The notes beneath the pieces are model-generated. The model was not told the DNA's origin. It did not search any database and saw only the letters and a list, made by a program, of their open reading frames with translations. The position numbers and the translations under genes are program-made. Below, in pieces: positions 3,568-18,393 of a DNA stretch of 64,000 bases; within the stretch, counting starts at the first letter, position 1, and every line of letters starts with the position of its first letter. The DNA comes from Agaribacillus aureus (lineage in GTDB: Bacteria; Bacteroidota; Bacteroidia; Cytophagales; Cyclobacteriaceae): contig JAUJEB010000001.1 in assembly GCA_030442055.1 (NCBI GenBank), positions 868,001 to 932,000 on the forward strand, in the 5' to 3' direction.

Positions 3568-3617
3568 TCCTATCATTTCCCATCGCTGAATTGTCAAAGA
3601 TTATAAAAAGTAAAAAA

Positions 3618-4127
3618 ATGAAAATTATAATCTTAATTCTGACAATGATGACAGTAACAAATACCTTCGCACAAAATGGCAAAGCCAGTACGGTCAAAAA
3701 GACCTTCAGCCGTCAAACCTCTATAAGCATTGATATCAAAGCCAGCCCGGTCATTATCTGGTCTCTGCTAACCAATGCTTCTGATTATCCCAGGTGGAAT
3801 TCGACCATTGTTTCCATAGAAGGAGACATCGAAATGGGTAAAAAGATCAAACTCAAATCAACGCTGGATGAAAAAAGAACATTCAAATTAAAAATCAAGG
3901 ATTTCAAACCGGAAAAAAGCATGATTTGGGGAGATGGAAAGGGCAATCGTCTTTTTACGCTTAAAGAAAACAGTAGCGGCAGTATCACTTTTTCAATGGA
4001 TGAAAAAATCGGGGGGCTAATGTATCCCATGTATGCCAAGTATATACCTCCCTTTGACGAAGCATTTGAGCAATTTGCCGCTGACCTGAAAAAAGAAGCA
4101 GAGCTGATCCAAAACACTAAAAACTAA
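3618..4127 (+). CDS. exported SRPBCC-fold protein
   Basis: The frame is open from a TTG at 3591, but the ATG at 3618 is preferred because it gives a clean signal peptide (MKIIILILTMMTVTNTFAQ) in a protein of about 169 aa. The mature part has the START/SRPBCC pattern: SISIDIKASPVIIWSLLTNA, then YPRWNSTI and the later IWGDGKGNRLFTL. That fold makes a deep ligand pocket. Most SRPBCC proteins are cytoplasmic, so the signal peptide is notable. The gene follows the sigma-factor gene by about 50 bases and precedes a 133-aa hypothetical on the same strand, so the three are probably co-transcribed. The ligand is unknown. Confidence 0.8.
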   Translation: MKIIILILTMMTVTNTFAQNGKASTVKKTFSRQTSISIDIKASPVIIWSLLTNASDYPRWNSTIVSIEGDIEMGKKIKLKSTLDEKRTFKLKIKDFKPEKSMIWGDGKGNRLFTLKENSSGSITFSMDEKIGGLMYPMYAKYIPPFDEAFEQFAADLKKEAELIQNTKN

Positions 4128-4161
4128 CATATTTTACCACCATCATTTATTTAAATTTATA

Positions 4162-4563
4162 ATGGAAAAACGAACAAAAGACAATCCCTGGAAATTACAA
4201 ACACCTCCCCTAACTTCTGAATATCAAATGTATATGGATGAAAAAGACGGTGAAGAAATTATCGTTTGCGTCGTAGGCAAAACCGTCCTGCACTACAGCG
4301 CCAGGTGTATCGAAGATCTGCATCAAATGTTGAAAGCACATGGCGATTGGATGCTTCTGGGCAGTGCCGACGAGCAAAAACCCGCCAAGGAAGGCACCGT
4401 TGAAGCCTGGGCCCGCTCTGACAAAAATCCCGTTGGAGGCTGGTATGGCCTAAAAAAAGGCTATAGAGGTCGTTTTGGCATGTACATACCACCATTAATG
4501 GAGCAACTGGGGCTTGCCGAGGTAGAGCACAATAAAAGAAATAACAGGATGAAAGCTATATAA
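4162..4563 (+). CDS. conserved hypothetical protein, 133 aa
   Basis: The family is not recognised by name. The protein is soluble, with no signal peptide or membrane segment. The N-terminus (PWKLQTPPLTSEYQMY) leads into a hydrophobic strand (EEIIVCVVGKTVLHY) and a helix (IEDLHQMLKAHGDWMLLG). The C-terminal half is rich in W, G and R, with PVGGWYGLKKGYRGRFGMYI followed by PPLMEQLGLAEVEH. The order and proline-bounded segments look like a real compact domain. It starts 34 bases after the SRPBCC gene and is probably the third gene of the sigma-factor operon. A role in that regulon is inference only. Confidence 0.7.
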   Translation: MEKRTKDNPWKLQTPPLTSEYQMYMDEKDGEEIIVCVVGKTVLHYSARCIEDLHQMLKAHGDWMLLGSADEQKPAKEGTVEAWARSDKNPVGGWYGLKKGYRGRFGMYIPPLMEQLGLAEVEHNKRNNRMKAI

Positions 4564-4667
4564 AATCTTAAATAAACGCAGGGAAAAACTATCCCGACCT
4601 AATACGTCAGTTAATAACACCGGTGTCAGGACATCATGTGAGCGCAAACGCAAGGTGCTGTCTCGGT

Positions 4668-5957
4668 TCAATCATCCACTGCCTGGAATACCAATTGCCT
4701 GAACATCCAGCCGGTATTGTCGGAAGTTGTTCCCCGCGTTTGTTTCATCAAGATGCCGATGATCTTTTCTTTCGGGTCTGCAAAATATTGGGTATTGAAA
4801 TAGCCTCCCCAATCAAAAGTGCCTTCACTGCCAATGCCTCCCATGGCCTGGCCTTCCTGATTGACGATGCCGAAGGCTATGCCATAATCCTTGCCAGAAC
4901 CTGCCCACAGATCGTCAATTTGATTACTCATGATAGCTTGCACCGTAGTTCTGCTCAAAATACGAATACCGTTCAACTCTCCGCCGTTCAGGTACATTTG
5001 GAGAAATGTCGCATAGTCTTTTGCCGTGCTGGAAAGCCCGGCGCCACCTGAAAAAAATTTCCTGGCACCTTTGACAGGATAATCCGGATCATAAAAAGTA
5101 ACAGGATATCTACGCCACTGCTTACCCTCCATTTCTTGAACAGTAACTAATCGATCTGCTTTTCCCTTTGGCAGGTAAAACCAGGTATCATCCATACCCA
5201 GCGGATCAAATAAGCGGGCTCTCAGAAATTTATCGAAAGGCATACCGGACATTATTTCAATGAAGTATCCCAGTATATCCAGGCCTTCGCTGTAAGTAAA
5301 CTTCTCACCGGGGTTGTGGTGCAATGGAAGTTTCGCCAGTTTTTTGACACTTTCTTCAATGGTTATATTTTCAGTGGTAAACAGATCGGTTATTCCGGCC
5401 TTGTGATAGATCTTTTTAAAACGCGCATCGCCATCTATGACGCCATAGCCTACCCCTGAAGTATGGGTCAGCAGGTGGCGAATGGTAATTTTATTTTTGG
5501 CGGGTTTGGTCGTATAGGTGGTGTCGCTTTCTATCAGAGAATCCAATAATTGTTCATTTTCAAACTCGGGAATATACTTTGAGATGGGATCATCCAACCT
5601 GAATTTACCTTCTTCCCAAAGCATCATTACCGCTGTGGCTGTAATCGCTTTGCTTTGAGAAGCAATTCTAAAAATATCATCCCGCTTTAGGTCTCTGCCA
5701 GATTCGTTGTCAGCCATTCCAAATGCTTTGTGATAAACAATTTTTCCATTTCTGGCAACCAGGGCAACCGCGCCTGGTATGTCCCCGTCTTCAATTGCCT
5801 GCTGGCACATTTTATCGATCCGTGCCAAACGCTCTATTGACATCCCCGCCAGATTTGCCGGACCTTCGGATAAAGGTGGAGAATTTTTAATAGATCTGGT
5901 TTGGGCAACTGCTGTCAAAGTCAACACAGCCAGCAAAAGGGTGAGTAGGCTCCTCAT
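4668..5957 (-). CDS. exported serine hydrolase, beta-lactamase/class C esterase family
   Basis: This 429-aa protein has a signal peptide (MRSLLTLLLAVLTLTAVAQ) and a beta-lactamase-like fold (Pfam Beta-lactamase, PF00144). The SxxK nucleophile motif is SQSK (S100, K103), preceded by IFRIA. The Tyr motif is in FTYSEGLDILGYF, and the C-terminal part has GGYFNTQYFADPKEKI. It presumably hydrolyses an ester or amide in the periplasm. The family holds esterases, D-aminopeptidases and peptidoglycan-related enzymes, so the substrate cannot be set, and a true antibiotic lactamase is unlikely. The gene is monocistronic and convergent with the 133-aa gene. Confidence 0.9.
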   Translation of the reverse strand: MRSLLTLLLAVLTLTAVAQTRSIKNSPPLSEGPANLAGMSIERLARIDKMCQQAIEDGDIPGAVALVARNGKIVYHKAFGMADNESGRDLKRDDIFRIASQSKAITATAVMMLWEEGKFRLDDPISKYIPEFENEQLLDSLIESDTTYTTKPAKNKITIRHLLTHTSGVGYGVIDGDARFKKIYHKAGITDLFTTENITIEESVKKLAKLPLHHNPGEKFTYSEGLDILGYFIEIMSGMPFDKFLRARLFDPLGMDDTWFYLPKGKADRLVTVQEMEGKQWRRYPVTFYDPDYPVKGARKFFSGGAGLSSTAKDYATFLQMYLNGGELNGIRILSRTTVQAIMSNQIDDLWAGSGKDYGIAFGIVNQEGQAMGGIGSEGTFDWGGYFNTQYFADPKEKIIGILMKQTRGTTSDNTGWMFRQLVFQAVDD

Positions 5958-6108
5958 ATTTAAAAGCTATTTAAGGTTAAAATGACAAAATGATGATTTT
6001 TCAGCTAATTATCAAATCACCTTGTTTGAAGCTGCGTGTGACAAACTCCAGGTATTTAACATCAGGGCCCGTTCGCCACGTGGCTTTCAAAAATGATTGC
6101 TCTTGCGC

Positions 6109-7200
6109 TTACGGTTCAAATGCTACCGCCTCGTTTTCATGCCAGCTAGCCGCATATGGATCATAGTTGCAGGGTATTTCAAAATAATAATTGCCGCCGC
6201 GACCTTCGATGGGAATTCTCGGATCTACACACATATAACGGAATTCACAGTCCTTGCAAATCTCAATATCATCTTTTTTGACTTTCCAGTATTTCTGAAA
6301 ATCAGGTGAATGAACAACCTCAATCATTTTATCAGTTTCCACGTTTCCAAATACCTCTTCGGTATGCGGCGCATTTTTTATTTCTCCAGCCTCATTGATA
6401 TAAATTTTTTTGTTAAAATAAAGATTGAAGTGATGGGATTCGTTAAACACGTTTAGATGGTTATTTCTTTGAAAGCCTTCTATGGTTTTTTCATAACTAA
6501 CATTTTCCGGGTGAAAACTAACACTATGGTAGTTAATTTTCCTGCTGTCTGTTGCTGCGGCTGCGTCTACTGTTTTTTCCTTATCGGCATTAAATACATT
6601 CAAAGACCCTATTCTTAGAAATTTTCCCAACAGATCTTTCAGATAGGTGTCATTTGTACTTCCGTTTGAGGCATCGGTAAGAAGCAATTGAAGGTCAGCT
6701 ATTCTGGTTTTGTCAAAAAGGGTCAAAACCCTTTCAAGTGTGGGTTTATCAATTTCAGAAAAAAAACGCAATTGAACGGCAAAGCAATTCATAGCATCCA
6801 ATGCCCTCACCATTTTTTCAAAATGTGGTGCTGTTTTTTTCCCATAATCAATGATGGCGTTGGTCAGTAAGCCCGGGTATTCCCAACTGGTGGTTAAAGG
6901 AGGAAAATACTTCACCCGGTCTTTGGTAGTGTAAAAGATATATTCTTTTTCTTCTAAAAAGGAAAAATATTTTTTAATAAATGCAGCATTTTCTCCCCCA
7001 TACACTGCTATTATCTCATCAACGGTTTTACCCTGGTGCTGCTCAATAATTTCTGCCAAAATATTGGGGATAAGATCCAGTGAACGTCTCTGGCTATCAG
7101 CTATCAGAGACCGGCTAGCGCCTTTTACCAGGCGACAACAGGAAAATAATACAAAGTGATTGTTCATTTTTCGGTTTTGAGGGGATGAATTTCTTTCCAA
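6109..7200 (-). CDS. grasp-with-spasm SPASM-domain peptide maturase, copy 1 (cysteine-poor)
   Basis: This 363-aa protein is of the SPASM type found beside ATP-grasp ligases in Bacteroidota grasp-with-spasm RiPP clusters. It has no CxxxCxxC radical-SAM motif; the N-terminus only has NHFVLFSCCRLVKGASRS. The C-terminal SPASM region has CKDCEFRYMC (C315, C318, C324) and C344. Compared with copy 2 (8921-9952), two SPASM cysteines are replaced: Ala277 in EIKNAPHTEEVFG and Pro327 in CVDPRIP. The start at 7200 overlaps the small gene 7164-7382 by 37 bases, suggesting coupled translation; M12 at 7167 is an alternative. It is the last gene of copy 1. Confidence 0.85.
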   Translation of the reverse strand: MERNSSPQNRKMNNHFVLFSCCRLVKGASRSLIADSQRRSLDLIPNILAEIIEQHQGKTVDEIIAVYGGENAAFIKKYFSFLEEKEYIFYTTKDRVKYFPPLTTSWEYPGLLTNAIIDYGKKTAPHFEKMVRALDAMNCFAVQLRFFSEIDKPTLERVLTLFDKTRIADLQLLLTDASNGSTNDTYLKDLLGKFLRIGSLNVFNADKEKTVDAAAATDSRKINYHSVSFHPENVSYEKTIEGFQRNNHLNVFNESHHFNLYFNKKIYINEAGEIKNAPHTEEVFGNVETDKMIEVVHSPDFQKYWKVKKDDIEICKDCEFRYMCVDPRIPIEGRGGNYYFEIPCNYDPYAASWHENEAVAFEP

Positions 7201-7382
7201 AAAGGATAGATATGTCTATTTGAATCGTAAACTGCCACATCAACGGACCGTTGGTGCGTAGCTTTTCTTTTGTTGGCTACGTGCAGCTTTCTGTAAAGCA
7301 CGGGAAACACTTTTTCAAGGTCCGCTTTGATCTCCGGGTCTCCGTTGCTCAAAGTTTCTGCCAGATCATTTGTTTTACTCAT
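7164..7382 (-). CDS. small unassigned protein between ATP-grasp and SPASM genes, copy 1
   Basis: This 72-aa charged protein lies 27 bases after the ATP-grasp gene, and its 3' end overlaps the SPASM gene start. It carries no KGG leader, so it does not look like the precursors of this locus. The N-terminal half is helical and acidic/basic (IKADLEKVFPVLYRKLHVAN). The C-terminus has QRSVDVAVYD and HIYPFWKEI. Copy 2 holds a gene in the same slot (9919-10194) whose product shares RSV and a terminal WKxI. Conserved position in both copies argues that it is real and works with the maturases, perhaps as an adaptor or a second substrate type (inference). Confidence 0.65.
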   Translation of the reverse strand: MSKTNDLAETLSNGDPEIKADLEKVFPVLYRKLHVANKRKATHQRSVDVAVYDSNRHIYPFWKEIHPLKTEK

Positions 7383-7409
7383 TTTTAACTTGGTTAGAAG
7401 GTTGAAAAA

Positions 7410-8399
7410 CTAAACATCGTGTTTCATAAGGTATTCAGCTATTTTCTTCTCCAGATTGTAATTACATGGAAAAGAGGTCATGCCAAATTGGCCAATCGGG
7501 TTTACCTCCAAAAAGACAAACTTGCCTTCTGTCGTCAAAATCATATCAATAGAACCTGTATTAAGCGAAAGTTTCTCCATCAGTTTTTTTAGCTTTTTTT
7601 TCAGTTTATCCGGCAACCTGAATGGAACTTTCCTATTGGGCTTTGAATAATCGTAATGTCTGAAATCAACGGCTGTTTGGTCATTGGCTTGGGAAAATAT
7701 GGCCATAGCATAAAATTCAGGTTCTAAATAGAAAATACGTAGTTCTAATTCCTTCTTTATCTGTTTTTGAAAAAGGGAGGGATAAAAAAGATCCGGGAGT
7801 TTTTCTATATCTGTCTTATTTATTTCCTGGGTATACATCATATATCTTGTATCCTGGTGGGAAAAAATGGTAACGTTATGAATACCCTTGGTTATCAATG
7901 TCCCCTGCTCTTTGTGAAATTGGCTCAATTCTGATTTCTGTGTAGTGACCAAAGTAGGCGGTATGGATATGCCTAATTGCCTGGCACAGATTAAAACTTT
8001 TATTTTATCCTCTGATTTTCTAAAACCAAAATTCCCCAGCCAATGTGCGTCCTCCAGAAGCGCTACGAATCCACAATCGCTGTATAGCTGTTCGTTTTCT
8101 ATATGCCGCGCTATATCCGTATTAAGTTCGTTATCTGCAATCGGATCAAATGAATGGTTACCGGCATAGTAGGGTTTTGACTTCCATCGTCTGTAAAAAA
8201 CGACATTGGGTTTGACCTTATTTAAAGGCTTATTCTTAAGGTTTATAGTGGTTTCTTCATTATTTAGAAGATAGGAAAAGGGAGTATTACGTAAAGTGTA
8301 ATCTCCTTTCATTACCTCAAACTGTCCCTTTGACCAATTGATCCACTCCATTACGTGAAGGGCAGAAATATCCTCGCCATTGGTTATAATCAAAATCAT
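7410..8399 (-). CDS. grasp-with-spasm ATP-grasp peptide maturase, copy 1
   Basis: This 329-aa ATP-grasp ligase is related to the graspetide/microviridin ring-forming enzymes. These use ATP to activate Asp/Glu side chains of a precursor and join them to Ser/Thr (ester) or Lys (amide). Visible motifs are FYRRWKSKPYY (about residue 68), KELELRIFYLEPEFYAMAIF, TAVDFRHYDYSKPNRKVPF, and the metal-binding C-terminus SIDMI plus FVFLEVNPIGQFG. The substrate is inferred to be the precursor just upstream (8588-8803). Between them lies a hairpin-plus-T-run terminator that could limit maturase expression relative to precursor. Copy 2 at 10154-11140 has the same architecture. Confidence 0.9.
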   Translation of the reverse strand: MILIITNGEDISALHVMEWINWSKGQFEVMKGDYTLRNTPFSYLLNNEETTINLKNKPLNKVKPNVVFYRRWKSKPYYAGNHSFDPIADNELNTDIARHIENEQLYSDCGFVALLEDAHWLGNFGFRKSEDKIKVLICARQLGISIPPTLVTTQKSELSQFHKEQGTLITKGIHNVTIFSHQDTRYMMYTQEINKTDIEKLPDLFYPSLFQKQIKKELELRIFYLEPEFYAMAIFSQANDQTAVDFRHYDYSKPNRKVPFRLPDKLKKKLKKLMEKLSLNTGSIDMILTTEGKFVFLEVNPIGQFGMTSFPCNYNLEKKIAEYLMKHDV

Positions 8400-8532
8400 A
8401 TCAATCTAATTACCGATTTTTATGTACTGAGAAAGTCCGAAGGACCTTGCCAGGTTTGTTATTTCTGAACTAATCAAATCTCGATGAAATGATAGCTGTA
8501 TTTTTAATCTGAAAGAATGACGAATAAATCCT

Positions 8533-8567
8533 CAAAAAATAACCGAAACTAAATAAGCTTCGGTTAT
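8533..8567 (-). terminator. Rho-independent terminator/attenuator after precursor P1
   Basis: On the minus strand, just downstream of the P1 stop, there is a perfect 9-bp stem (ATAACCGAA at 8539-8547 against TTCGGTTAT at 8559-8567) with an 11-nt loop, followed by a run of six T. It sits between the precursor and the ligase gene. Partial read-through would give much precursor and little maturase, which is common in peptide-modification operons. Confidence 0.75.
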
Positions 8568-8587
8568 CTTCTAGAGGTTTTTACATC

Positions 8588-8803
8588 TTAGCATTCACCG
8601 TCAACGGTACAAGTTCCTGCAGTATCGTCATAAGTTGCACGAGATTCGTCATCAGTAAAAGTATCCCCTGGTTGAGAAGAGTTTTTTCCTGAAACATTTC
8701 TTCCTCCTCCGGTTTTAGTTTTAAAGCCTAAACCACCTTTAACTGCCTCAAGCTGGAACTTTTCCAACGACATACTTTCGAAATTTTTCATTGTTTTTTT
8801 CAT
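8588..8803 (-). CDS. grasp-with-spasm precursor peptide P1, 71 aa
   Basis: This is a RiPP precursor with a leader ending in KGG (MSLEKFQLEAVKGG), as in the GG-Bacteroidales leader type that C39-peptidase exporters cut after the double glycine. The core of about 47 aa starts at LGFKTKTGGGRNVSG and is rich in T, S, D and E, with TFTDDESRATYDD and a C-terminal TCTVDGEC. Thr/Ser beside Asp/Glu is what an ATP-grasp ester-forming ligase needs. Two cysteines near the C-terminus could bridge. M5 is an alternative start. It lies upstream of ligase copy 1 and downstream of SPASM copy 2; a terminator follows. Ring pattern and activity are unknown. Confidence 0.85.
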   Translation of the reverse strand: MKKTMKNFESMSLEKFQLEAVKGGLGFKTKTGGGRNVSGKNSSQPGDTFTDDESRATYDDTAGTCTVDGEC

Positions 8804-8920
8804 TATTTTATGTATTTAAATTGTTCCTACTCTATTAAAGCTTTTCGGACCCGCTTTTATCTTATATGTCAAGATTTTTTATTTATTCATTAGTAAAAAC
8901 AGCTGTTTTCCGGTATGTGA

Positions 8921-9952
8921 TCACCAAACTCCTTCATAAGGATCATAAGTACATTTGGCGGGTTTGGATAATTCATCAGCGGGATTGGTTACATAGGCAC
9001 GGCAATCGTGACAGATATACCGGAACTCACAGTCTTTACAAACCGATATCTCGTCTTTCCGCAGGTGCCAGGCCCGTTGAAAGTTCACATCCTCACTTAC
9101 CGCTTTCACAGATGTGGTTTTAATTTGCCCATAAGACTTTGTCATGGAAGGGCAGTTTTTTATTTCTCCTCTTTTGTCAATGCCAATCTTGCGGTTCAGG
9201 CAACTATTAAAAGTTTGTGCCTCCGTAAATGACGCCACGTTGGAAGTGAAATAATGGGGTAACACCTGCCCGCAACAGGACTCGGACGTTATTTCCTGGT
9301 GCAAAAAAATGATTTTGTCACCCGCACCTCCATCATCATCCACGCCGTCGGGGGCATCGTGAATAAGGATCTTTTGCACCCTGGGATTCTCATTGGCAAG
9401 CTGGTTTAATTTCTCAGGAGCCAAATCCGGATGGTAACGTACCATCACCTGCACGCCTCGAATAGCGGTATCCTCAAACAGGCTCAGGCAAGCTGTGAGC
9501 TGGCTAAAGGGAAGTGCATGAAAAAAGCGTAGCTCTACTGCCGGGCAGTACATAGCTGATAACTGTGTAATGATATCTGATAAGTTATGATCACTTTTCT
9601 CATCAAAGTCCACGATGGCGTTGGTAATCGGAAAGGGATTATACCAGGTCAGATCCATTTTTGGGAATTTTTGAGGTTCCTCACTGTAAAAACCATATTC
9701 TTTCTCCGTCAAAAATTCCAGGTACTCCAATATCTCTTTATCATAGGCATGATCATATGCTTCCAATAATTCCCCGATGGACTTTCCCTCATGTTCTGTG
9801 AGAATTTCGTACAGTACATTCGGAATAAGCTCAAAAGAGTCACGCTGCAAATCGCAGATAGTACTTCTATTGGCCCCCTCCACAGGAATACAGCAGGCAA
9901 ACAGTACAAAGTAATTTTTCAGGAATTCCGGTTCTCTTCTATTGATTTCCAT
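8921..9952 (-). CDS. grasp-with-spasm SPASM-domain peptide maturase, copy 2
   Basis: The frame is open from 10036, but the ATG at 9952 aligns with copy 1 (MEINRREPEF against MERNSSPQNR) and gives 343 aa. Both then have FVLF-[AS]-CC and RSxIxDxQR near the N-terminus. There is no radical-SAM CxxxCxxC. The C-terminal SPASM set is complete compared with copy 1: C267 (EIKNCPSM), then C305, C308, C314 and C317 in CKDCEFRYICHDCRAY, and C334. SPASM domains bind auxiliary iron-sulfur clusters and often help bind peptide. In this family the domain stands without the radical-SAM core, so the chemistry is unsettled. The gene overlaps the preceding small gene by 34 bases. Confidence 0.88.
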   Translation of the reverse strand: MEINRREPEFLKNYFVLFACCIPVEGANRSTICDLQRDSFELIPNVLYEILTEHEGKSIGELLEAYDHAYDKEILEYLEFLTEKEYGFYSEEPQKFPKMDLTWYNPFPITNAIVDFDEKSDHNLSDIITQLSAMYCPAVELRFFHALPFSQLTACLSLFEDTAIRGVQVMVRYHPDLAPEKLNQLANENPRVQKILIHDAPDGVDDDGGAGDKIIFLHQEITSESCCGQVLPHYFTSNVASFTEAQTFNSCLNRKIGIDKRGEIKNCPSMTKSYGQIKTTSVKAVSEDVNFQRAWHLRKDEISVCKDCEFRYICHDCRAYVTNPADELSKPAKCTYDPYEGVW

Positions 9953-10194
9953 ATAGACTCGTTTAAGGTGGTAGAAATTGGTTTGTATAAACCGTAGGTA
10001 AAAAATAATTTGGTATTGTACGGAACACTGCGACAAGGTGATAATGCCCCATCCTGTTCGGATTCTTCCGCTGCATGTTGTTGCTTCAACTCCTTCAATT
10101 GTGCCATCAAAAGATTGAGTGAATACAACTTCCGCTGACGGGGGGGGATGGTATCAAGAAACTTTTCTTTTTTCATAGGTATGGTCATTTTCAA
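9919..10194 (-). CDS. small unassigned protein between ATP-grasp and SPASM genes, copy 2
   Basis: This protein has 91 aa from 10194, or 85 aa if it starts at M7 (10176). It overlaps the end of the ATP-grasp gene and the start of the SPASM gene, a sign of coupled translation. It has a basic N-terminus (MKKEKFLDTIPPRQRKLY), a helix with LLMAQLKELKQQHAAEE, then CRSVPYNTKLFFTYGLYKP and a C-terminal ESIWKSIEENRNS. It shares position, the RSV tripeptide and terminal WKxI with the copy 1 protein but little else. It has no KGG leader. It is probably a partner of the maturases; its function is not known. Confidence 0.65.
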   Translation of the reverse strand: MKMTIPMKKEKFLDTIPPRQRKLYSLNLLMAQLKELKQQHAAEESEQDGALSPCRSVPYNTKLFFTYGLYKPISTTLNESIWKSIEENRNS

Positions 10195-11140
10195 TGAGGT
10201 GTTCCGCGATAAGCTGATCGAGGTTGAAGTTGCATGGTATCGCCGTCATGCCATACTGGCCTACGGGATTGACTTCTAAAAAGTAATAGCACCCGTCACG
10301 TCCCCGGATCATGTCTATTGAACCGCAATTCAGATCAAGGATCCGCATTAACAGGTGCAATTTGTTTTGTACCTCCTGCGGTAAGTGGTACGGGACATTA
10401 CGATTCGGCCTATCATCATTGTAATGTCTGAAATCAAGCTTTGTCTGTGCGTCTGACTGGGAAAAAATGGCCATGGGATAAAAGGCGCCGGCCAGATAAA
10501 AAACTCTGATCTCATAATGCTTTTCTATCTTCTTCTGAACCATTGACGGGTAGAACTTCGCTTCCAGCTTCTTAACAATTTCAGGTGTGAGCTCCTCCGT
10601 ATACATCATATAGGTCGCCTGGTTTGTCTCCAATACAGTAGATTCAAAAATGGATTTACAAATCAAACTTTGATCTTCCATCAGTGTGAGTAATTGATCT
10701 TTGGTATTCACTACATAGGTAGCAGGAATGGATAGGCCACACTGGTTAGCTTTGTTGAGTACATGCATTTTGTTTATAGAAACGTTGAGCGGGTGATTTA
10801 ACCAGTAGGCATCGTGAAAGAGCGTGGCAAAACTATGGCGCAGGCTGGCATATTCGAAGTTGAGCTGCTCGATGGTCTGTTCAACCAAATGTCTTTGGTT
10901 ATTTCGGAAGAAAAAGGAATTCTTAAATGCATCCGTTCTCCGGTACCATACGGCGTTCACCTCAGATGCCTCAATACGATCTCCTTCAATGGTAAACACC
11001 CCGGATAGCAAGGAAAAGGAAACCCGCTTGTCCAGAAAGTCACCCAAATTGATCCTTATAAAAGGGTGTTTGTAAAAATTCAACCAGTCCATCACATCTT
11101 CCGTAGATGGATCTCCGGACATACTCATAATTAAAATCAC
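10154..11140 (-). CDS. grasp-with-spasm ATP-grasp peptide maturase, copy 2
   Basis: This 328-aa paralogue of 7410-8399 has the same motif order: MILIMSMSGDPSTEDVMDWL, VWYRRTDAFKNSFF, KHYEIRVFYLAGAFYPMAIF, TKLDFRHYNDDRPNRNVPY, SIDMIRGRDG and FLEVNPVGQYGMTAIP. The Glu and Asn of LEVNP are the usual metal ligands of ATP-grasp enzymes. It lies 120 bases after precursor P2 and leads into the small gene and SPASM copy 2, so its likely substrates are P2, P3 and P4. The two ligases have diverged clearly, which argues for different core specificity and not a recent duplication. Confidence 0.9.
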   Translation of the reverse strand: MILIMSMSGDPSTEDVMDWLNFYKHPFIRINLGDFLDKRVSFSLLSGVFTIEGDRIEASEVNAVWYRRTDAFKNSFFFRNNQRHLVEQTIEQLNFEYASLRHSFATLFHDAYWLNHPLNVSINKMHVLNKANQCGLSIPATYVVNTKDQLLTLMEDQSLICKSIFESTVLETNQATYMMYTEELTPEIVKKLEAKFYPSMVQKKIEKHYEIRVFYLAGAFYPMAIFSQSDAQTKLDFRHYNDDRPNRNVPYHLPQEVQNKLHLLMRILDLNCGSIDMIRGRDGCYYFLEVNPVGQYGMTAIPCNFNLDQLIAEHLIENDHTYEKRKVS

Positions 11141-11260
11141 AGTGCCTTATGAAAGTAAGTTTAGAAATGGAAGTTTAGAAAAGGAGCCTTGAAATTAAGT
11201 CCCAACCCGACCTTGATCCAAGACCCCTTTTAAAAAAAGACTAACAAATAAACTCGTTAA

Positions 11261-11407
11261 CTAGAAATCTATGTCGTACAAGTCTCCGTGTGTTTTTTTA
11301 TTGCAACTATCATTTGGTTTAAATCTAGAACCTCCTTTTGCCTGGGCCATTTGGGTGGCCTCCAACGTTTGGAATTTAGTTGCCTTTAACTTTTCAAATT
11401 TTTTCAT
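11261..11407 (-). CDS. grasp-with-spasm precursor peptide P2, 48 aa
   Basis: This short gene encodes a leader nearly the same as that of P3 (MKKFEKLKATKFQTLEATQM, then AQAKGG). The 22-aa core begins SRFKPNDSC and ends HGDLYDIDF, with one Cys and several Asp near Ser/Thr. It is read from the ATG at 11407 to TAG at 11261, 41 bases after the P3 stop and in the same direction. On the minus strand the stop is followed by a weak AT-rich hairpin and a T7 run, a possible attenuator before ligase copy 2. The shared leader and KGG make this a confident call despite its size. Confidence 0.85.
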   Translation of the reverse strand: MKKFEKLKATKFQTLEATQMAQAKGGSRFKPNDSCNKKTHGDLYDIDF

Positions 11408-11448
11408 GGATGCATTTTTAGAATTTACATATAAAAAAATACCCTATT

Positions 11449-11637
11449 CTATATGGATGATCCTACCATTACCAGGTCCAGAGAATCATCGGTATCCCAT
11501 TCGCACACTGACCCCGTATAGCTTTTTTTGTAGGTAGCAGTATCCAGACCACCACGTGCACCGCCTTTGGCCGCTTCCATCCGGGAACGCTCTATAGTTT
11601 GAAATTTTGTTGCGTTTAGTTTTTCGAATTTTTTCAT
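11449..11637 (-). CDS. grasp-with-spasm precursor peptide P3, 62 aa
   Basis: The leader is MKKFEKLNATKFQTIERSRM followed by EAAKGG, so it differs from P2 at only a few positions. The 36-aa core begins ARGGLDTATYKKSYTGSVC and continues EWDTDDSLDLVMVGSSI. It has Thr/Ser and Asp/Glu clusters suited to side-chain cyclisation, one Cys and one Trp. Leader identity with P2 and a wholly different core is the usual sign of one enzyme set working on several products. It lies between P4 and P2. Confidence 0.88.
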   Translation of the reverse strand: MKKFEKLNATKFQTIERSRMEAAKGGARGGLDTATYKKSYTGSVCEWDTDDSLDLVMVGSSI

Positions 11638-11690
11638 GATTTTCAGATTTTAAATTTTAATAAAGTTTACTGCTTTAAGCCCCATGACAT

Positions 11691-11855
11691 TTATGATGTC
11701 GTTCTTACCTTCTTTCTATTTGGATGAGGCAAGGGTACATCAGAGGTCCAAATAAATTCTCCGTTAGGCCCCAGCGACCAGCTACCACCTTTGATCTTTG
11801 CGGAAAATGTTATTTCGCAATGCTCAAACTGGTGAAGTGATTTTTGCTTTTTCAT
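11691..11855 (-). CDS. probable precursor peptide P4, 54 aa, divergent leader
   Basis: This 54-aa peptide is read from the ATG at 11855 to TAA at 11691. The leader MKKQKSLHQFEHCEITFSAK plus IKGG keeps the double glycine but not the KFQ helix of P2/P3. The core begins SWSLGPNGEFIWTSDVPLP and ends in basic NRKKVRTTS, with few acidic residues, so it is a poorer graspetide substrate than P1-P3. It is the first gene after the hairpin at 11951-11994 and may share a promoter with P3 and P2. It could be a substrate of other chemistry or an unmodified exported peptide. Confidence 0.7.
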   Translation of the reverse strand: MKKQKSLHQFEHCEITFSAKIKGGSWSLGPNGEFIWTSDVPLPHPNRKKVRTTS

Positions 11856-11950
11856 TATTGTTTTTAGTTCAAAATATTAGTTATGTGCAAAAAATTATTA
11901 GATGACGAATATAACGGGCTATTTCTGCAAAATGCTAATTCCCAGCATCT

Positions 11951-11994
11951 ACAAGTCGTCTACAGCTATTAAAAACAGCTTGTAGACGACTTGT
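11951..11994. repeat. perfect 14-bp inverted repeat containing GTCTAC
   Basis: ACAAGTCGTCTACA (11951-11964) pairs with TGTAGACGACTTGT (11981-11994), and an AGCT pair extends the stem. It lies between the hlyD stop (12035) and precursor P4 (start 11855). No T-run follows on either strand, so it is a weak terminator candidate. It carries the same GTCTAC hexamer as the paired sites at 13383 and 15974, so it may be an operator or a processed RNA hairpin. Confidence 0.6.
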
Positions 11995-12034
11995 CCTACC
12001 CCAAATGGTCAGATGATTTCATCTAAAAGAGCTG

Positions 12035-13336
12035 TTACTGTCCTTGTAGCCTGTATTTGATAGATTTTAACCAATGAAACATTTTCTCCATCAGCCGCAG
12101 GTCCTCTGTGATCACTTCTGTTTGTCCTGTGAGATTTTGACGAATGCTTAGCGCCTTGCCATAGGTGGTTTCCAGTTGATTTGGTAAAGAAAGTTCAACC
12201 TGGTAATGGTCTTCCACAGATATAATAGGAAAATCCCTCACCACACCGCGCAGCATACCATACTGCTCGTGCGGATAATGATCGAGTTTGATATTCACCT
12301 GCTGTCCGATATCCACCTTCCCGGCGCCTGCCACCGGCAAAGTGGCGATGGCAAGAATCTCTCCCCGGTCGGGGACCAGTGAAAACAACGCCTTGCCCAT
12401 AGGTATATATTGATTATCATGCAGGATATCCAGGTAGCTTAGCCGGCCTTCTGTCGGCGCTATAAAGAGGTGGGCAGTTTTCCAATTTCCGATCTGCGCC
12501 AAAAGCTCACTTTTAGTATTGGCCAATGCCTGCCAAAGTTGATTGCTTTCCGACTGTTTTGCTATGCTCAATTTGGTTTGCAAGGCTTTTAGCTCTTCAA
12601 TACGCACCTCCTGGTTAATCAGCGAAGCTCCCATTCGTTCCGACTCCTTACGGCTTTGCAGAAATTCTTTTTTTCTTTGTTGGAAATCTACCTTTGGAAT
12701 GACGTTCTGTGTAAACAATGTAGAATCTGCCTTGAATTTAGTGGCCGCAAGATCTTGCTGTACTTTGGTTAATTGCCACTGTTGAACCAGGTTTGATTTA
12801 AGCTTTTCATGCGCCACCAATTGTTTCTGTATTTGCGAGATCTGGCGGTTATGATCATCCATGGCAAGGAATAAATGCCATTGACTTTTCGCCAGTGTAT
12901 ACCGGTTGTAGTAATCCTGGAGTGGCCCAAGGTTGGTATATTCGCCGGTTTCGGCTTTAGGAGCCATTAGTTCGGCTTCAAGTTGCAAAATAACGCGCCA
13001 ATCTTCCGGTGATTTTATTAGTCCCAGCACATCTCCTTTCTTAACAGCTTCCTTTTCTTTCATCAGTACCACGATAGGTCCCGAAGACCTGGCTACCAGG
13101 GTAACGGGTGCAGGGTTGGTTGTGATCAATACATCGGCATGAAGGATGTCCGGATACTTAATAAACCATGAAATAGTCAGCAGCACCATCAGCACGGCAA
13201 AGATTAGTGAAATGCCTGTACGCACCAGCCAATGCGGTACCGCCCCGATCATATCCTGTATCTCGTCAGATCGACGATGAATTCCCTCATAGGGGTTGAT
13301 GCCGACTTCTTCGTAATGTTGTTGGTTATTTTTCAT
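12035..13336 (-). CDS. HlyD-family membrane-fusion protein of a peptide exporter
   Basis: This protein has about 433 aa from the ATG at 13336; the frame is open to a GTG at 13366. A short cytoplasmic N-terminus precedes one membrane segment (GISLIFAVLMVLLTISWFI). A biotinyl/lipoyl-like domain follows (SSGPIVVLMKEKEAVKKGDV), then a long coiled coil (about 120-290) and a C-terminal barrel (FIAPTEGRLSYLDILHD, VDIGQQVNIKLDHYP). Such adaptors link a peptidase-ABC exporter to the outer membrane. The exporter gene is divergent (13563-15767), and the shared intergenic region holds a GTCTAC direct repeat. The call is secure, and so is the inferred role in export of the KGG peptides. Confidence 0.92.
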   Translation of the reverse strand: MKNNQQHYEEVGINPYEGIHRRSDEIQDMIGAVPHWLVRTGISLIFAVLMVLLTISWFIKYPDILHADVLITTNPAPVTLVARSSGPIVVLMKEKEAVKKGDVLGLIKSPEDWRVILQLEAELMAPKAETGEYTNLGPLQDYYNRYTLAKSQWHLFLAMDDHNRQISQIQKQLVAHEKLKSNLVQQWQLTKVQQDLAATKFKADSTLFTQNVIPKVDFQQRKKEFLQSRKESERMGASLINQEVRIEELKALQTKLSIAKQSESNQLWQALANTKSELLAQIGNWKTAHLFIAPTEGRLSYLDILHDNQYIPMGKALFSLVPDRGEILAIATLPVAGAGKVDIGQQVNIKLDHYPHEQYGMLRGVVRDFPIISVEDHYQVELSLPNQLETTYGKALSIRQNLTGQTEVITEDLRLMEKMFHWLKSIKYRLQGQ

Positions 13337-13382
13337 AGCGGATAAATTTAGTGGGAAGAAAACCACCTTAATAAAAAGGAGC

Positions 13383-13399
13383 GTCTACAAATAGTCTAC
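13383..13399 (+). promoter_or_regulatory. GTCTAC-N5-GTCTAC direct repeat, candidate operator (site A)
   Basis: Two identical GTCTAC hexamers at 13383 and 13394 have an 11-bp period, so both face the same side of the helix. The site lies 47-63 bases before the hlyD start, within the hlyD/exporter divergent promoter region. The same arrangement recurs at 15974. The binding protein is unknown. Confidence 0.5.
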
Positions 13400-13562
13400 T
13401 CGCAAATAATGGTTCACCGACAGGCCTTATTAAAAAAAATTTTTAGTTAACATCACGCCTTGAAAAGATCGGAGGGAACGCGACAATAATCAGTGGTGAT
13501 ATCGATACCTCCCTGGTTTTCCCAATCCTATTTATGATCTCGGTTTTAATTGAGTGGCAGCA

Positions 13563-15767
13563 ATGACAAAAAGATTCCCCTTATTCACACAACATGATAG
13601 CATGGATTGCGGTCCTACCTGCATACGAATGATCGCCAAATCATACGGTAAAAATTATTCACTTGAATATTTAAAACGGCGGTCCTACTTTACCCGGGAG
13701 GGTGTATCGCTGGCAGGTATAAGTGAGGCAGCGGAAACCATAGGTTTCAGAACGTTAGCGGTAAAGACTACACTTGAAAACCTGGCGAAGGAAGCGCCGT
13801 TGCCATGTATTGTCCACTGGCAACAGCAGCATTTTGTGGTGGTCTATAAGATAGATAAGAAAAAGGTCTGGATTGCCGACCCGGTAGGACAAAGAATTAC
13901 ACTTAGTCACGATGAGTTTTTGCGATCCTGGGCTTTTATGACAGACCGCGATGAAAAACTGGGAATTGTGTTGCTGTTTGAAACTACCCCCGATTTCTAT
14001 TCCAGGGAAAGGGACGAGCAGACCAGTCAAAAGAAGCGTATCACTCATCTATTTTCCTACTTTCATCAATATAAATCTTTTATCTGGCAGCTGATCCTGG
14101 GATTGCTGGCCGGTAGCCTGGTACAGCTATCGTTACCCTTCCTGACGCAAGCCGTGGTAGATGTTGGTATCAACACCCAAAACCTGAACTTTATCTACAT
14201 CATCCTGGCAGCGCAGCTCATGCTGGTATTTAGCCGCACAGCCGTAGATTTTATCAGAAGATGGATATTGCTTCATCTGAGTACCCGGGTAAATATTGGC
14301 ATGATCTCAGATTTTCTCATTAAGATTATGCTGGCCCCTTTATCATTTTTTGATTCAAGAATGATAGGCGACATCCTTCAGCGTATCGGGGACCATACCA
14401 GGATTCAAAACTTCCTAAGCTCCTCCTCCCTGAACATTCTATTTTCTTTTTTCAACCTGCTGGTATTTGGAGCCATCCTGCTATTTTATGATATTTCAAT
14501 CTTCCTGATTTTCTTTATTGGTAGCGCCATATACTTTCTATACGTTATCCAGTTTCTTAAAAAAAGAGAGGAGCTGGATTACAAACTATTCAACCAGCAA
14601 TCCACTAATCAAAGCACCCTGATACAACTGATTACAGGGATTGCTGAAATCAAACTCAATGGGGCCGAAAAAACCAAGCGGTGGGAATGGGAGAGAATAC
14701 AAGCAAAGCTTTTCAAAGTAAAAGTAGCCTCTACCTCGCTGCAGCAATGGCAGGAATCCGGAAGTGTTTTTATCAACGAACTGAAAAACATTGTGGTAAC
14801 CATACTGGCTGCCAAAGCGGTAATCGACGGCGAAATGACGCTGGGCATGATGTTGGCAGTGCAATACATCATTGGCCAGCTCAATGCGCCCATCAATGAC
14901 ATTATACTATTTTTAAGAGAGTGGCAGGATGCAAAAATCAGCCTGGAGCGGGTAGGCCAGGTATATGAGCAGGAAAATGAAGAAACGCAGCATGCGGACT
15001 ATAGCTTGATTTTACCTGCCCACAGATCTATAAAAGTCAAAAACCTGTCATTTCGCTATGACGGTGGGCGCGGAGATCTGGCCCTGGATGATGTTTCCTT
15101 TGATATACCCGAAGGCAAGGTGACGGCCATTGTAGGGATGAGTGGGAGCGGTAAAACAACTTTGTTGAAGCTACTTTTAAAATTTTATCAACCGACAGCA
15201 GGCAAAATTACGGTAGGGGGCATGGATCTCCAGGCCATTCACAGCAAAAGATGGCGCAGTCTGTGTGGCGCAGTAATGCAGGACGGCTTCATATTTTCCG
15301 ACACCATCGCCAGTAACATTGCGGTCGGTGAAGATATAGAATACCATGATCAGCAACGCCTGAAAAAGGTGTCGGAACTAGCTAATATCTCAAGCTTCGT
15401 AGAAGAGCTCCCACTTGGATTTAATACTAAAATCGGTCAGGAGGGCATTGGGATGAGCCAGGGCCAGCAACAAAGGTTATTGATTGCAAGAGCCATTTAC
15501 AAAGAGCCTGAATTTCTTTTCTTTGACGAGGCCACCTCTTCGCTGGACGCCAATAATGAAACCGAAATTATGAGGAACCTGGAGCAGGTATTTGCGGGCA
15601 GGACGGTGTTAGTCATCGCACACCGGTTGAGTACTGTCAAAAACGCAGATCAGATCATTGTCATGGATAAAGGCAGTATTGTAGAGCTGGGTAATCATCA
15701 TTCCTTGATCAGACAACAGGGAAATTATTACTACCTGGTCAAAAATCAACTGGAACTTGACAAATGA
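13563..15767 (+). CDS. peptidase-containing ABC exporter (C39 peptidase, membrane and ATPase domains)
   Basis: This protein has about 734 aa from the ATG at 13563; a GTG at 13554 is also possible. The C39 peptidase domain is at about residues 1-140, with FTQHDSMDCGPTCIRMI giving the Gln and the catalytic Cys16, HWQQQHFVVVY giving the His, and IADPVGQ the Asp. The membrane domain spans about 160-450. The ATPase domain has Walker A GMSGSGKTT, signature MSQGQQQRLLIARA and Walker B FLFFDEATSSLD. It cuts leaders after GG and exports the cores, which matches the KGG precursors across the divergent promoter. A 28-codon frame overlaps its stop (ATGA). Confidence 0.95.
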   Translation: MTKRFPLFTQHDSMDCGPTCIRMIAKSYGKNYSLEYLKRRSYFTREGVSLAGISEAAETIGFRTLAVKTTLENLAKEAPLPCIVHWQQQHFVVVYKIDKKKVWIADPVGQRITLSHDEFLRSWAFMTDRDEKLGIVLLFETTPDFYSRERDEQTSQKKRITHLFSYFHQYKSFIWQLILGLLAGSLVQLSLPFLTQAVVDVGINTQNLNFIYIILAAQLMLVFSRTAVDFIRRWILLHLSTRVNIGMISDFLIKIMLAPLSFFDSRMIGDILQRIGDHTRIQNFLSSSSLNILFSFFNLLVFGAILLFYDISIFLIFFIGSAIYFLYVIQFLKKREELDYKLFNQQSTNQSTLIQLITGIAEIKLNGAEKTKRWEWERIQAKLFKVKVASTSLQQWQESGSVFINELKNIVVTILAAKAVIDGEMTLGMMLAVQYIIGQLNAPINDIILFLREWQDAKISLERVGQVYEQENEETQHADYSLILPAHRSIKVKNLSFRYDGGRGDLALDDVSFDIPEGKVTAIVGMSGSGKTTLLKLLLKFYQPTAGKITVGGMDLQAIHSKRWRSLCGAVMQDGFIFSDTIASNIAVGEDIEYHDQQRLKKVSELANISSFVEELPLGFNTKIGQEGIGMSQGQQQRLLIARAIYKEPEFLFFDEATSSLDANNETEIMRNLEQVFAGRTVLVIAHRLSTVKNADQIIVMDKGSIVELGNHHSLIRQQGNYYYLVKNQLELDK

Positions 15768-15850: not shown

Positions 15851-16611
15851 TTCTAAGGATAGCCTTGTTTGTGATGAAGTTCTATGGCTGTCAAAACCAG
15901 GTGTCCAGTTAAGCTAAGCCACCTTAAATCAATTATTTTGGGTAGGGTGCCTTTGGCGGCTTTATTTATGGTTGTCTACAAACCGTCTACATTCCTTCAA
16001 AATTATGTCTGACAACCTTGTGGAACTCAATTGGATAACAAAAGATTATTAGATTTGGCCCATTGTCAAACAAATTTCTTAATCAAAGTGATCATCAATT
16101 ACCCTAACCAACCATTGAAGTTAATTAACAATCCGAACATCAGCTGTTTTTCTGACTATACAAATGCCGTTTGCAGGCAAGCAGGAAATAAGCCGGCGTC
16201 TAAATCCAGTAGTACACCCACTGTGAGTGGACCTCTGATATGGCTAATGAATCGCAAAGAAAAAAGTGGCATCGCTTATAACATAACCTACCAAAAGAGG
16301 AAACCTGCTACCGATAAGTTCATCTCAAAGCCTAAAGCATAAAATGTTATAAAAACCGGCTTTGTGTCTGCTTTGAGCAATCCGGAGAAGCTTCCCTTCT
16401 TAAGCAACTTAATAACGCCGGATGCCCGGGCTATTCCGAATTATAAACAATTTTAGAGGAAGCCTGGGTTTTGCCTGATGTTCCCATCTGCGCCTGTCAA
16501 TTTCAGGTATGTACAAGCATGTTTGAAATTTCAATTCGAGGCGCTACATTTAATATTACATTTACTTAGACTACCGGTTTATATTGACTACCGTCTAATT
16601 GCTTTAAAATC
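15851..16611. other. long intergenic region between exporter and TPR regulator
   Basis: It holds the GTCTAC pair at 15974 and an open frame of 103 codons (16031-16342, plus strand). That frame's product (start MDNKRLLDLAHCQTNF) has no recognised domain, and the minus strand is also partly open, so it may be a decayed gene. Just before the TPR gene, GACTACCG occurs twice (16569 and 16586) with a 17-bp period. Nothing else is clear. Confidence 0.5.
15974..15990 (+). promoter_or_regulatory. GTCTAC-N5-GTCTAC direct repeat, candidate operator (site B)
   Basis: GTCTAC hexamers at 15974 and 15985 have the same 11-bp period and nearly the same spacer (AAACC against AAATA) as site A at 13383. The site lies after the exporter and about 620 bases before the TPR-HTH regulator gene, in a long non-coding stretch. 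Confidence 0.45.
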
Positions 16612-18393
16612 ATGAAACAATCTTTCTTTTTGAGTTTATTATTGCTGCTATCCGGCCATTGGGTTTTTGCAAATACCAAAAATGATGTAGATAAACTTTT
16701 TGATATAGGCCTCAATGAGGTCAACCTGCCACCGGATTCTACCATTGCCATTGGCAACAGTATGTTGGCAATGAGCCAAAACCTGGATTATATACGTGGC
16801 ATCATAAGGGCCAGGGTGATTAAAGGAATTGGCTATTTATTTTCCAATCAGATGGACTCATCATCTACCGAACTGCTTACCGCCATCCAACTGGCCGAAG
16901 ATTCAAATGCGGAAAAGACGTTTGAATATGGGTTGGCTAAAAATTTTCTTGGCAGTGTTTTTACCCGTCTCAGTAGTCTGGATAAAGCCAGGCAAAATTT
17001 CGAAGAAGCACTGGAGATATTCAAGGATGTAAACAATAATAGTTATATCTGTGCAGCAACCACCAACATAGGCACTATTTTCGGTATGCAGGGAAGCTAC
17101 CCGGAGGCGCTGGACTTTTTTCTGGCAGCACATAAAATAGCCAGTAACGAAAACGTGCCGGTGAGAAGGCAGGCGGAAGCCATGTCCAATATTGCGACAA
17201 CGTTAAGCCTGATGGGCAAAAAGGAACAGGCTTTGCAATATGCTTTCAAAGCGCTGGCCATCGACGAGGAAGAAAAACTCATGAGAGGTGTATACATTAG
17301 CCATAACTTAATAGCAAACATCTATAACCGGAATGATGATTATGACAGTGCCTTGTATTACTATGACCTGAATGTGAAAATTGCGCCGGCCAATAATCCA
17401 AGGTTTACACCAATTATTGCACGTGCCATTACCGGAACCTGTAACATCTATATTCGCCAGAACAAGCTTCATGAAGCCATCAAATTATTAAAAAGGGTAG
17501 AAAACGAAGGATATAATTATCAAACAGAAATTCTTTACAACACCATTGCATCGAATTATCTCAAATTGAAACTGTACGACAGCACCCTTTTTTATGCCCG
17601 CAAAGCACTTTCCATTGCTACAGTGGCCAATGCTAAAAAAGGGATCAAGAATGCTTCAAACCATTTGCAGCTGGCGCATTTTGGAAAAAAAGCCTTTGAC
17701 TCGGCCTATTTTTATCAACAGCTTCACCATATTTATAAGGATTCCATGTACAATGAGTCCAACGAACGGAAGTTCAACAACTCTGTCATGGCGCTGGTCA
17801 CTATGGAAAAGCAACAGGAAATAGACCAGCTAAGGCAGAAAAGAGTGATCGATAAACTACAAAGCCGTATCACAACCGGAAGCCTGATCACCGGGATCCT
17901 GTTCGTTCTTGCCATTTTCATGTTCTATCGTCATGAACAGCGTTTAAAGCAAAAAACACTGGAAAAGAAACTCGACTTAAACCAGAAAAACCTGACAAAT
18001 CACACCCTAAACATGGTGCATAAAAACAATGGGTTTATGCAAATGGAAAAAGAGGTAAGAAGTATGAGGGAAAAAGACGAGGTAAACTTCCAAAAACTAT
18101 TAAATATCATTAACCTCAACCGGTCGGCGGAAAAAGATTGGGATAACTTTAACAATTACTTCAGCGCAGCACATCCCGGTTTTGAGCAGCAATTTGCCAG
18201 GAGATTCCCCGGTTTAAGCATTGGCGACCGGCGCCTGGCTTCTCTGATAAAAATGAAATTATCAAACAGAGAAATAGCTTCTATATTAAACATCGAATCC
18301 AAAAGCGTAAGGATGAACAAATATCGCTTGAAAAGGAAACTGGAGTTATCTGAAGAAATTGACCTGCACGACTACCTGAGCGAGATATCGTAG
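16612..18393 (+). CDS. TPR-repeat membrane regulator with C-terminal helix-turn-helix
   Basis: This 593-aa protein has a signal peptide (MKQSFFLSLLLLLSGHWVFA). TPR repeats span about residues 40-390 (e.g. AKNFLGSVFTRLSSLDKARQ, ALYYYDLNVKIAP). A short coil, one membrane segment (ITTGSLITGILFVLAIFMFY, about 425-445) and a cytoplasmic coil follow. The C-terminal HTH is of LuxR type: GDRRLASLIKMKLSNREIAS, then ILNIESKSVRMNKYRLKRKL. The layout lets a periplasmic signal reach DNA through one protein. It lies next to the peptide exporter on the same strand, so it may control the peptide locus through the GTCTAC sites, but that is inference. Confidence 0.88.
   Translation: MKQSFFLSLLLLLSGHWVFANTKNDVDKLFDIGLNEVNLPPDSTIAIGNSMLAMSQNLDYIRGIIRARVIKGIGYLFSNQMDSSSTELLTAIQLAEDSNAEKTFEYGLAKNFLGSVFTRLSSLDKARQNFEEALEIFKDVNNNSYICAATTNIGTIFGMQGSYPEALDFFLAAHKIASNENVPVRRQAEAMSNIATTLSLMGKKEQALQYAFKALAIDEEEKLMRGVYISHNLIANIYNRNDDYDSALYYYDLNVKIAPANNPRFTPIIARAITGTCNIYIRQNKLHEAIKLLKRVENEGYNYQTEILYNTIASNYLKLKLYDSTLFYARKALSIATVANAKKGIKNASNHLQLAHFGKKAFDSAYFYQQLHHIYKDSMYNESNERKFNNSVMALVTMEKQQEIDQLRQKRVIDKLQSRITTGSLITGILFVLAIFMFYRHEQRLKQKTLEKKLDLNQKNLTNHTLNMVHKNNGFMQMEKEVRSMREKDEVNFQKLLNIINLNRSAEKDWDNFNNYFSAAHPGFEQQFARRFPGLSIGDRRLASLIKMKLSNREIASILNIESKSVRMNKYRLKRKLELSEEIDLHDYLSEIS

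Follow-up and report, generated by a model that had tools for sequence, protein, structure and literature searches.

Branch 5 of the graspetides, as laid out in a 2022 survey (PMC8939145), comprises loci in which an ATP-grasp ligase (TIGR04192) is encoded with a SPASM protein (TIGR04193), a small LPL-type protein directly upstream of the SPASM gene and several unlike precursors with double-glycine (GG) leaders, frequently together with a C39 exporter and an HlyD protein. These features, the LPL-type protein by position, are shared by a locus at 6109-15767 of the stretch analysed here, 64,000 nucleotides of the Agaribacillus aureus genome (contig JAUJEB010000001.1, positions 868,001 to 932,000; hereafter the window), which differs from branch 5 in having two modules instead of one. 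In the part of the survey available to us, this largest poorly characterised graspetide branch is described with radical S-adenosylmethionine (SAM) chemistry: its SPASM proteins are called SPASM radical SAM enzymes, thioether or C–C bonds are expected and the cysteines of the precursor cores are noted. A chaperone-like role is suggested there for the LPL protein, whose motif resembles the leader motif missing from branch 5 precursors, and the only two-ligase loci it mentions are microviridin-like ones. Group 14 of a second study (PMC13097080), which we take to be the same as branch 5, resembles the window in that all of its members co-occur with a SPASM protein, and an NHLM-type transporter is common; in the portion of that paper at hand no member is characterised and no cofactor classes are described. 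The nearest tested precedent for such a helper is rosaritide MirB/MirC from the same source, a graspetide ligase that requires a partner, although MirC is a PPIase-type protein whereas the helper in the window is a SPASM protein.

In the direction of the minus strand, between 13366 and 6109, the locus encodes, in this order, an HlyD-type adaptor (12035-13366), three GG precursors, ligase 1 (10154-11140), small partner 1 (9919-10176, 85 residues), SPASM1 (8921-9952), a fourth precursor, ligase 2 (7410-8399), small partner 2 (7164-7382, 72 residues) and SPASM2 (6109-7167), while the C39-peptidase ABC exporter (13554-15767) is divergent on the plus strand. Ligase, partner and SPASM protein 1 form module 1, and those numbered 2 form module 2; three precursors are placed ahead of the former and one ahead of the latter. 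The frame of partner 1 begins within the last bases of ligase 1 and runs into the beginning of SPASM1, and the probable ATG of SPASM2 overlaps the stop of partner 2. Both ligases exceed the NCBIfam cut-off for TIGR04192 (230 bits), with 318.1 bits for ligase 1 and 268.5 for ligase 2, and both keep all 16 columns that are invariant across 21 ligases. The SPASM frames, which are open further than their probable ATG starts at 9952 and 7167 (SPASM1 8921-10036, SPASM2 6109-7200), score 337.5 and 234.8 bits against TIGR04193 (cut-off 175). The general SPASM model TIGR04085 (cut-off 27) gives 28.0 bits for SPASM1 and 20.1 for SPASM2, and Pfam SPASM (PF13186, cut-off 21.5) gives 22.8 bits for SPASM2 and no listed match for SPASM1; the adaptor (PF13437) and the exporter (PF03412, PF00664 and PF00005) are all above cut-off. 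A first-pass annotation of the window had described two tandem sets of ligase, partner and SPASM protein with four KGG precursors, an HlyD adaptor and a C39 exporter, and all of these were found within the span it gave, with family matches above cut-off for both ligases, both SPASM proteins, the adaptor and the exporter. By its predicted proteins, the locus is a grasp-with-spasm graspetide locus in a two-module form of the known system.

Contrary to the published assumption, the SPASM proteins of this family are predicted not to be radical SAM enzymes. Although the branch 5 proteins have been taken as such, the CxxxCxxC motif was present in none of 130 open frames of the family, both window proteins included. 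A structure model of SPASM1 (predicted local distance difference test score, pLDDT, 95; predicted template modelling score, pTM, 0.89) starts with strands at residues 14-17, 21-24, 30-34 and 39-43 and three helices, a part that we read as a putative leader-binding-like domain, and continues into about four beta-alpha units and the SPASM region. Foldseek returned eight matches to this model at E < 0.001, each of them an entry for CteB or SuiB (E 7.9e-7 to 1.7e-4); the closest solved folds are PDB 5WHY and 5WGG, which we take to be CteB, and 5V1Q, 5V1S and 5V1T (SuiB). CteB and SuiB are radical SAM enzymes with leader-binding domains; the window proteins, unlike them, have no CxxxCxxC and are shorter (343 residues versus 418-440). 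A search of the PDB with the SPASM profile gave a single weak match, 7uek ('OT3', E 0.0015), which was judged to be chance, and a PDB sequence search with the C-terminus of SPASM1 gave no match. We found no report of the missing radical SAM motif or of cysteine classes in TIGR04193 in a literature search that mostly did not extend to subscription journals, where either may be in print.

The SPASM partner family also comes in discrete predicted cluster-ligand classes, a finding of wider use. Of 113 SPASM hits, the 101 proteins analysed score above 200 bits; fragments were dropped, as were three identical copies that came from loci fetched twice. Four cysteine columns, C227, C251, C267 and C317 in SPASM1 numbering, co-occur or are absent together, and the other four (C305, C308, C314 and C334) are present in all 79 proteins of alignment A2. 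We presume that these quartets are the ligands of auxiliary clusters I (AuxI) and II (AuxII), a split that follows the sulfatase-maturase structure. SPASM1 has all eight auxiliary-cluster cysteines; SPASM2 has four, and is without exactly the four predicted AuxI ligands. The SPASM1 spacing C305-x2-C308-x5-C314-x2-C317-x16-C334 fits the published SPASM motif, Cx2-4Cx5Cx2-3Cx14-18C with remote cysteines (PMC5682303). Among the 101 proteins, 68 have both quartets complete, 32 have AuxII with no AuxI cysteine and one has a single AuxI and no AuxII cysteine; a further 29 from other genomes, independent of the discovery of the pattern, divide into 19, nine and one with none of either. The combined 130 members thus comprise 87 with both quartets, 41 with AuxII only and two without AuxII, and AuxII never occurs with just one, two or three of the AuxI cysteines. 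Both AuxII-less proteins, from genomes G019 (locus L077; one AuxI-column cysteine left) and G305 (locus L057; none of the eight ligands), align with the family through most of the rest of their length. On a SPASM tree from an alignment stripped of the four AuxI columns, the label (both quartets or not) needed three changes (two if only starred branches are counted), compared with a shuffle mean of 27.9; the label is thus clustered and points to few loss events rather than 43 independent ones.

We consider it fairly probable that the window holds a two-module locus in which each SPASM protein acts as a leader-presenting, non-radical scaffold for a cognate ligase, with one HlyD/C39 exporter shared by the two. 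Because the radical SAM motif is absent, the cysteines occur in these states and the predicted fold is nearest to CteB and SuiB, we infer a scaffold role; module-specific pairing, the products and shared export are likewise proposed. Each module has its own precursor or precursors and its own ligase, partner and SPASM protein, the genes of the last three overlapping or lying close together. The SPASM protein would bind the precursor leader through its N-terminal leader-binding-like domain and, together with the small partner, present the core to the ligase of its module, which would join Thr/Ser to Asp/Glu side chains; the window cores contain both kinds of residue, matching the graspetide expectation. 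Finished peptides of both modules would leave by the one exporter, cut after GG. The iron–sulfur sites of the SPASM proteins are probably structural or regulatory and appear to have been lost, each site in its entirety, in some parts of the family; the SPASM protein of module 1 has both predicted sites and that of module 2 AuxII only. A broader version, which we hold tentatively and at somewhat less than even confidence, is that TIGR04193 as a whole is no maturase but a former radical SAM enzyme that now serves as a leader-binding scaffold and can do without its two iron–sulfur sites, each as a unit, and that the window contains two insulated lines, one with a two-cluster and one with a one-cluster scaffold, that feed one exporter and have separate control elements. 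If the SPASM protein is a scaffold, predictions of thioether or C–C products should be dropped, and tests of such ligases should always include the SPASM/partner pair. The window locus, in which a predicted two-cluster and a predicted one-cluster SPASM protein lie side by side with separate precursors, offers a ready internal comparison for the role of the AuxI site; this difference in ligands, together with the unlike control elements of the two modules described below, goes beyond the first-pass annotation.

Several observations weigh against the scaffold reading. The TM-scores of the best Foldseek matches are only 0.32-0.44 of the query, and the leader-binding domain is proposed from the order of strands and helices and from those matches, with no family match. 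The AuxI and AuxII assignments are predictions from motif and from the sulfatase-maturase structure, the loss of AuxI as a whole unit reflects few events, and the G019 and G305 proteins are also shorter at the C-terminus. Cysteine loss in some members does not prove that the eight-cysteine members are free of redox chemistry, as these may do something that the others have lost. In addition, precursor 4 has a leader that moderately resembles those of module 1 (rank 6 of 119; rank 14 of 117 in the reverse comparison), and cross-feeding between the modules of the window is therefore possible.

The chief alternative for the SPASM proteins themselves is that they are active maturases which add a second modification, a thioether or C–C bond, as the 2022 survey assumed. 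That survey classes them among the SPASM radical SAM enzymes and draws attention to cysteines in the cores (PMC8939145), and in our comparison the nearest core contained cysteine in 23 of 26 modules without AuxI and in 27 of 56 with it (raw p 5e-4; 82 of 105 modules usable, some precursor calls being evidently false open reading frames, such as the nearest one ahead of L073 and of L139). The association, however, comes down to one or two independent pairs and is inseparable from kinship, for which reason we dropped it as a link between core cysteine and SPASM type and kept it as a lead only; it also runs toward the type with fewer clusters. With the motif absent throughout the family and two members keeping one or none of the cluster ligands, we regard active maturases as unlikely. 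Less likely still is a decay of module 2, in which its SPASM protein would have lost a cluster and its partner the motif, so that module 1 alone would be productive. SPASM2 and partner 2 are indeed the more divergent, the terminal branch of SPASM2 in the tree being 1.28 against 0.75 for SPASM1, and locus L107 has a second module with its SPASM gene in pieces, although one piece lies at a contig end. However, the frames of module 2 are open and those of partner 2 and SPASM2 overlap, ligase 2 keeps every invariant residue, precursor 4 has a DUF805b element and a hairpin of its own, and the AuxII-only type is common and occurs in many single-module loci, for example in a Chryseobacterium group.

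A third possibility concerns the origin of the modules: an old tandem duplication in the lineage of the window, whose modules would make related products within a single pathway. Both modules have the same gene order, and the leaders of precursors 2-4 are alike. Approximately unbiased (AU) tests, run with 36 ligases and with 37 SPASM proteins taken from loci hand-picked for spread, do not reject the two window proteins as sisters, with p 0.516 for the ligases (the tree held to sisterhood being 0.76 log units higher) and p 0.235 for the SPASM proteins, results that also count against the main reading and leave an ancient duplication possible. Against it, the ligases are 39% and the SPASM proteins 34% identical, and in a tree of 101 SPASM proteins SPASM1 groups with three Sphingobacterium-type proteins (98, starred), whereas SPASM2 falls in a 20-member group that contains 19 AuxI-less proteins (84, not starred). 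No starred set in a tree of 105 ligases includes either of the window ligases. On balance we think a duplication within the lineage rather doubtful, though less so than either active maturases or decay. A recent tandem duplication is ruled out by the same identities, other loci being equally close or closer: two of 19 other ligases reach 40%, the highest value, to ligase 1, and other SPASM proteins up to 47% to SPASM1. The module pairs are thus old, the divergence of the ligases reported in the first-pass annotation holds, and the recent-duplicate grouping of the ligases that it named as refuting was not seen. Its further proposal, two product families through one exporter, is partly supported: the modules are diverged and the locus contains a single full-length exporter, the AU tests do not bear out a separate origin of the modules, and two product families and export by this pump alone are possible. 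Elsewhere modules can travel as units, since for each module of locus L140 the outside loci that group with the ligase are also those that group with the SPASM protein (SPASM 99 and 100, ligase 100 and 100, all starred; AU p 0.042 for SPASM sisterhood); whole modules there came from two sources.

Multi-module loci are uncommon but not unique, and they turn up repeatedly across Bacteroidota. The search for TIGR04192 covered four overlapping genome draws (195, 395, 395 and 390 genomes), in which mostly only 5-10 candidates were scored per genome, counts were made by hand and weaker neighbouring ligase pairs (e.g. MvdC/MvdD-like) were left out of the two-module count; of 53 distinct genomes with a ligase above cut-off, two, that of the window and G494, had two such ligases within 10 kb. 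A second sample consisted of 80 named loci, the best of 553 relatives ranked against ligase 1 and thus not random, with flanks of up to 10 kb that in some cases ended at contig ends. More than one ligase is present in at least four of these 80, a lower bound: L087 (three), L107 (one of them cut by a contig end), L140 and L146. As the first-pass annotation stated, most of the loci sampled have one set, 76 of these best 80 holding one ligase in the DNA fetched and 51 of the 53 genomes being without a second within 10 kb. Three of the five other multi-module loci (L059, L140 and L146) resemble the window in that two ligases are accompanied by a single full-length C39 exporter and a single HlyD; the 14 kb of L087 show no exporter, and L107 has only two short C39 pieces. 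In L059 and L146, one SPASM protein has both quartets and one has AuxII only, and every SPASM protein of L140 and L087 has both; with few loci, this split of types is not significant. The three tandem modules of L087 (positions 1-14220) belong to a Chitinophagales metagenome-assembled genome (MAG), and matches to the Flavo-1 small RNA lie in both of its inter-module gaps and before its first module. Grasp-with-spasm modules were also seen in MAGs titled Aminicenantes, Gemmatimonadetes and Thermoanaerobaculum (L095, L143 and L151), outside the usual Bacteroidota range, where binning errors are possible.

Among the four GG precursors of the window, precursor 3 (11261-11407, 48 residues) alone passes a family cut-off, with 28.0 bits against TIGR04149 (cut-off 25). 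Precursor 2 (11449-11637, 62 residues) is below it at 18.7 bits, but its leader and that of precursor 3 are nearly alike (score 97; next leader 60). Neither precursor 1 (11691-11855, 54 residues), the least certain, nor precursor 4 (8588-8803, 71 residues, starting 404 nucleotides ahead of the ligase 2 start) matches any NCBIfam model, and both were recognised by the GG motif only; all four end their leaders in KGG and lie on the minus strand. In L059 and L146, by contrast with the window, the two modules have dissimilar leaders (ranks 31-95). An LPL-type protein between ligase and SPASM protein is present by position in both modules, although neither small partner matches an NCBIfam or Pfam family above cut-off. 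The C-terminal motif is clear in partner 1, as a YKPIS pattern that is common at the same place in other loci, and weak in partner 2; the structure model of partner 1 is also weak (pTM 0.33). A comparison of this motif with SPASM type (51 of 64 versus 13 of 32) is dominated by one Chryseobacterium clade and was not used.

The two modules may be controlled separately, since a repeat found elsewhere in the locus is absent from module 2 and since precursor 4 has instead a DUF805b element and a hairpin. The repeat pattern, RTCTACAANNNGTCTAC, occurs three times in the whole 9.39 Mb genome, each time at the locus, on the same strand (plus) and between genes; its reversed form does not occur in the genome. 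The 17-nucleotide copies flank module 1 and the exporter: ATCTACAAGTCGTCTAC (11947-11963) lies after hlyD and before precursor 1, GTCTACAAATAGTCTAC (13383-13399) in the divergent hlyD/exporter gap and GTCTACAAACCGTCTAC (15974-15990) between the exporter and a TPR protein, and a weaker copy with two mismatches is found at 20139. The motif was derived from its own copies, which makes a fair test weaker. Three same-strand sites for any four-letter hexamer at the same spacing arose in one of 200 shuffles, but under a looser rule (10- or 11-base spacing, both strands) 10 of 100 other loci reach three sites, and the hexamer statistic alone is therefore weak. The first copy lies within a strong hairpin (-31.2 kcal/mol, a value that none of 200 shuffles reached), possibly as part of a terminator. 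A second terminator-like hairpin stands behind precursor 4, between it and ligase 2 (8533-8573, minus strand; the fold of 8530-8570 is -17.3 kcal/mol, again with none of 200 shuffles as low). The terminator pattern scan alone was below chance (two found in 10.8 kb versus 10.6 expected), and the Bacteroidota promoter pattern occurred three times in the window versus 3.67 expected, with none in the locus.

The DUF805b cis-regulatory RNA element (Rfam RF02914) is found at the locus only ahead of precursor 4 (8824-8857, minus strand; 44 bits, gathering score 35.6), ending 20 nucleotides before that gene. The genome of the window has six copies (L163-L168), five of them above the gathering score, each ahead of a peptide gene of 36-95 residues. 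A strict DUF805b string lies upstream of 17 of 105 grasp-with-spasm modules (reversed control, one of 105), with near-identical loci (L083/L085 and L086/L099) counted apart, and in all 18 cases a GG-type or precursor-like gene starts 19-36 nucleotides after the string; copies ahead of GG precursors include L085:9635-9669, L083:5380-5414 and L102:9701-9735. Matches are present in 112 of 198 genomes of the class, above the gathering score in 75. Next to 76 fetched copies, about seven of which are uninformative as the element is not at the expected place (L171, L172, L173, L175, L176, L183 and L198), the following gene is often that of a secreted or other protein, often a larger secreted one. An element confined to ribosomally synthesized and post-translationally modified peptides (RiPPs) is ruled out by these neighbours; because it is so widespread and often precedes larger secreted proteins, DUF805b is a general 5' element and not a RiPP signal. 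One of the copies in the genome (L166, G000:C1:37720) precedes a 36-residue peptide gene with VGG and CSNCGHC, followed by a 158-residue open reading frame, and looks like a GG peptide.

The genome (36 contigs) contains no further TIGR04192 or TIGR04193 match at E 0.001. Five C39 matches were found in it, including that of the locus, and another exporter could thus in principle serve the peptides; two of the other four are on contig C23 beside another GG-peptide locus. At this second locus (G000:C23:637432-643735), two small genes preceded by DUF805b lie between the two C39 matches, one of them cysteine-rich with FRGG and the other apparently degenerate, and one C39 match shows an internal stop. 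The only genome listed as of the same genus, G001, has no TIGR04192 match, and the locus is therefore not general in the genus; a plasmid collection, searched for near-identical DNA only, gave no match. Beyond the third repeat copy, a TPR protein on the plus strand (16612-18393; Pfam TPR above cut-off) has a possible C-terminal helix-turn-helix (GerE, 19.6 bits, below the cut-off of 23.5) and may be considered a candidate regulator.

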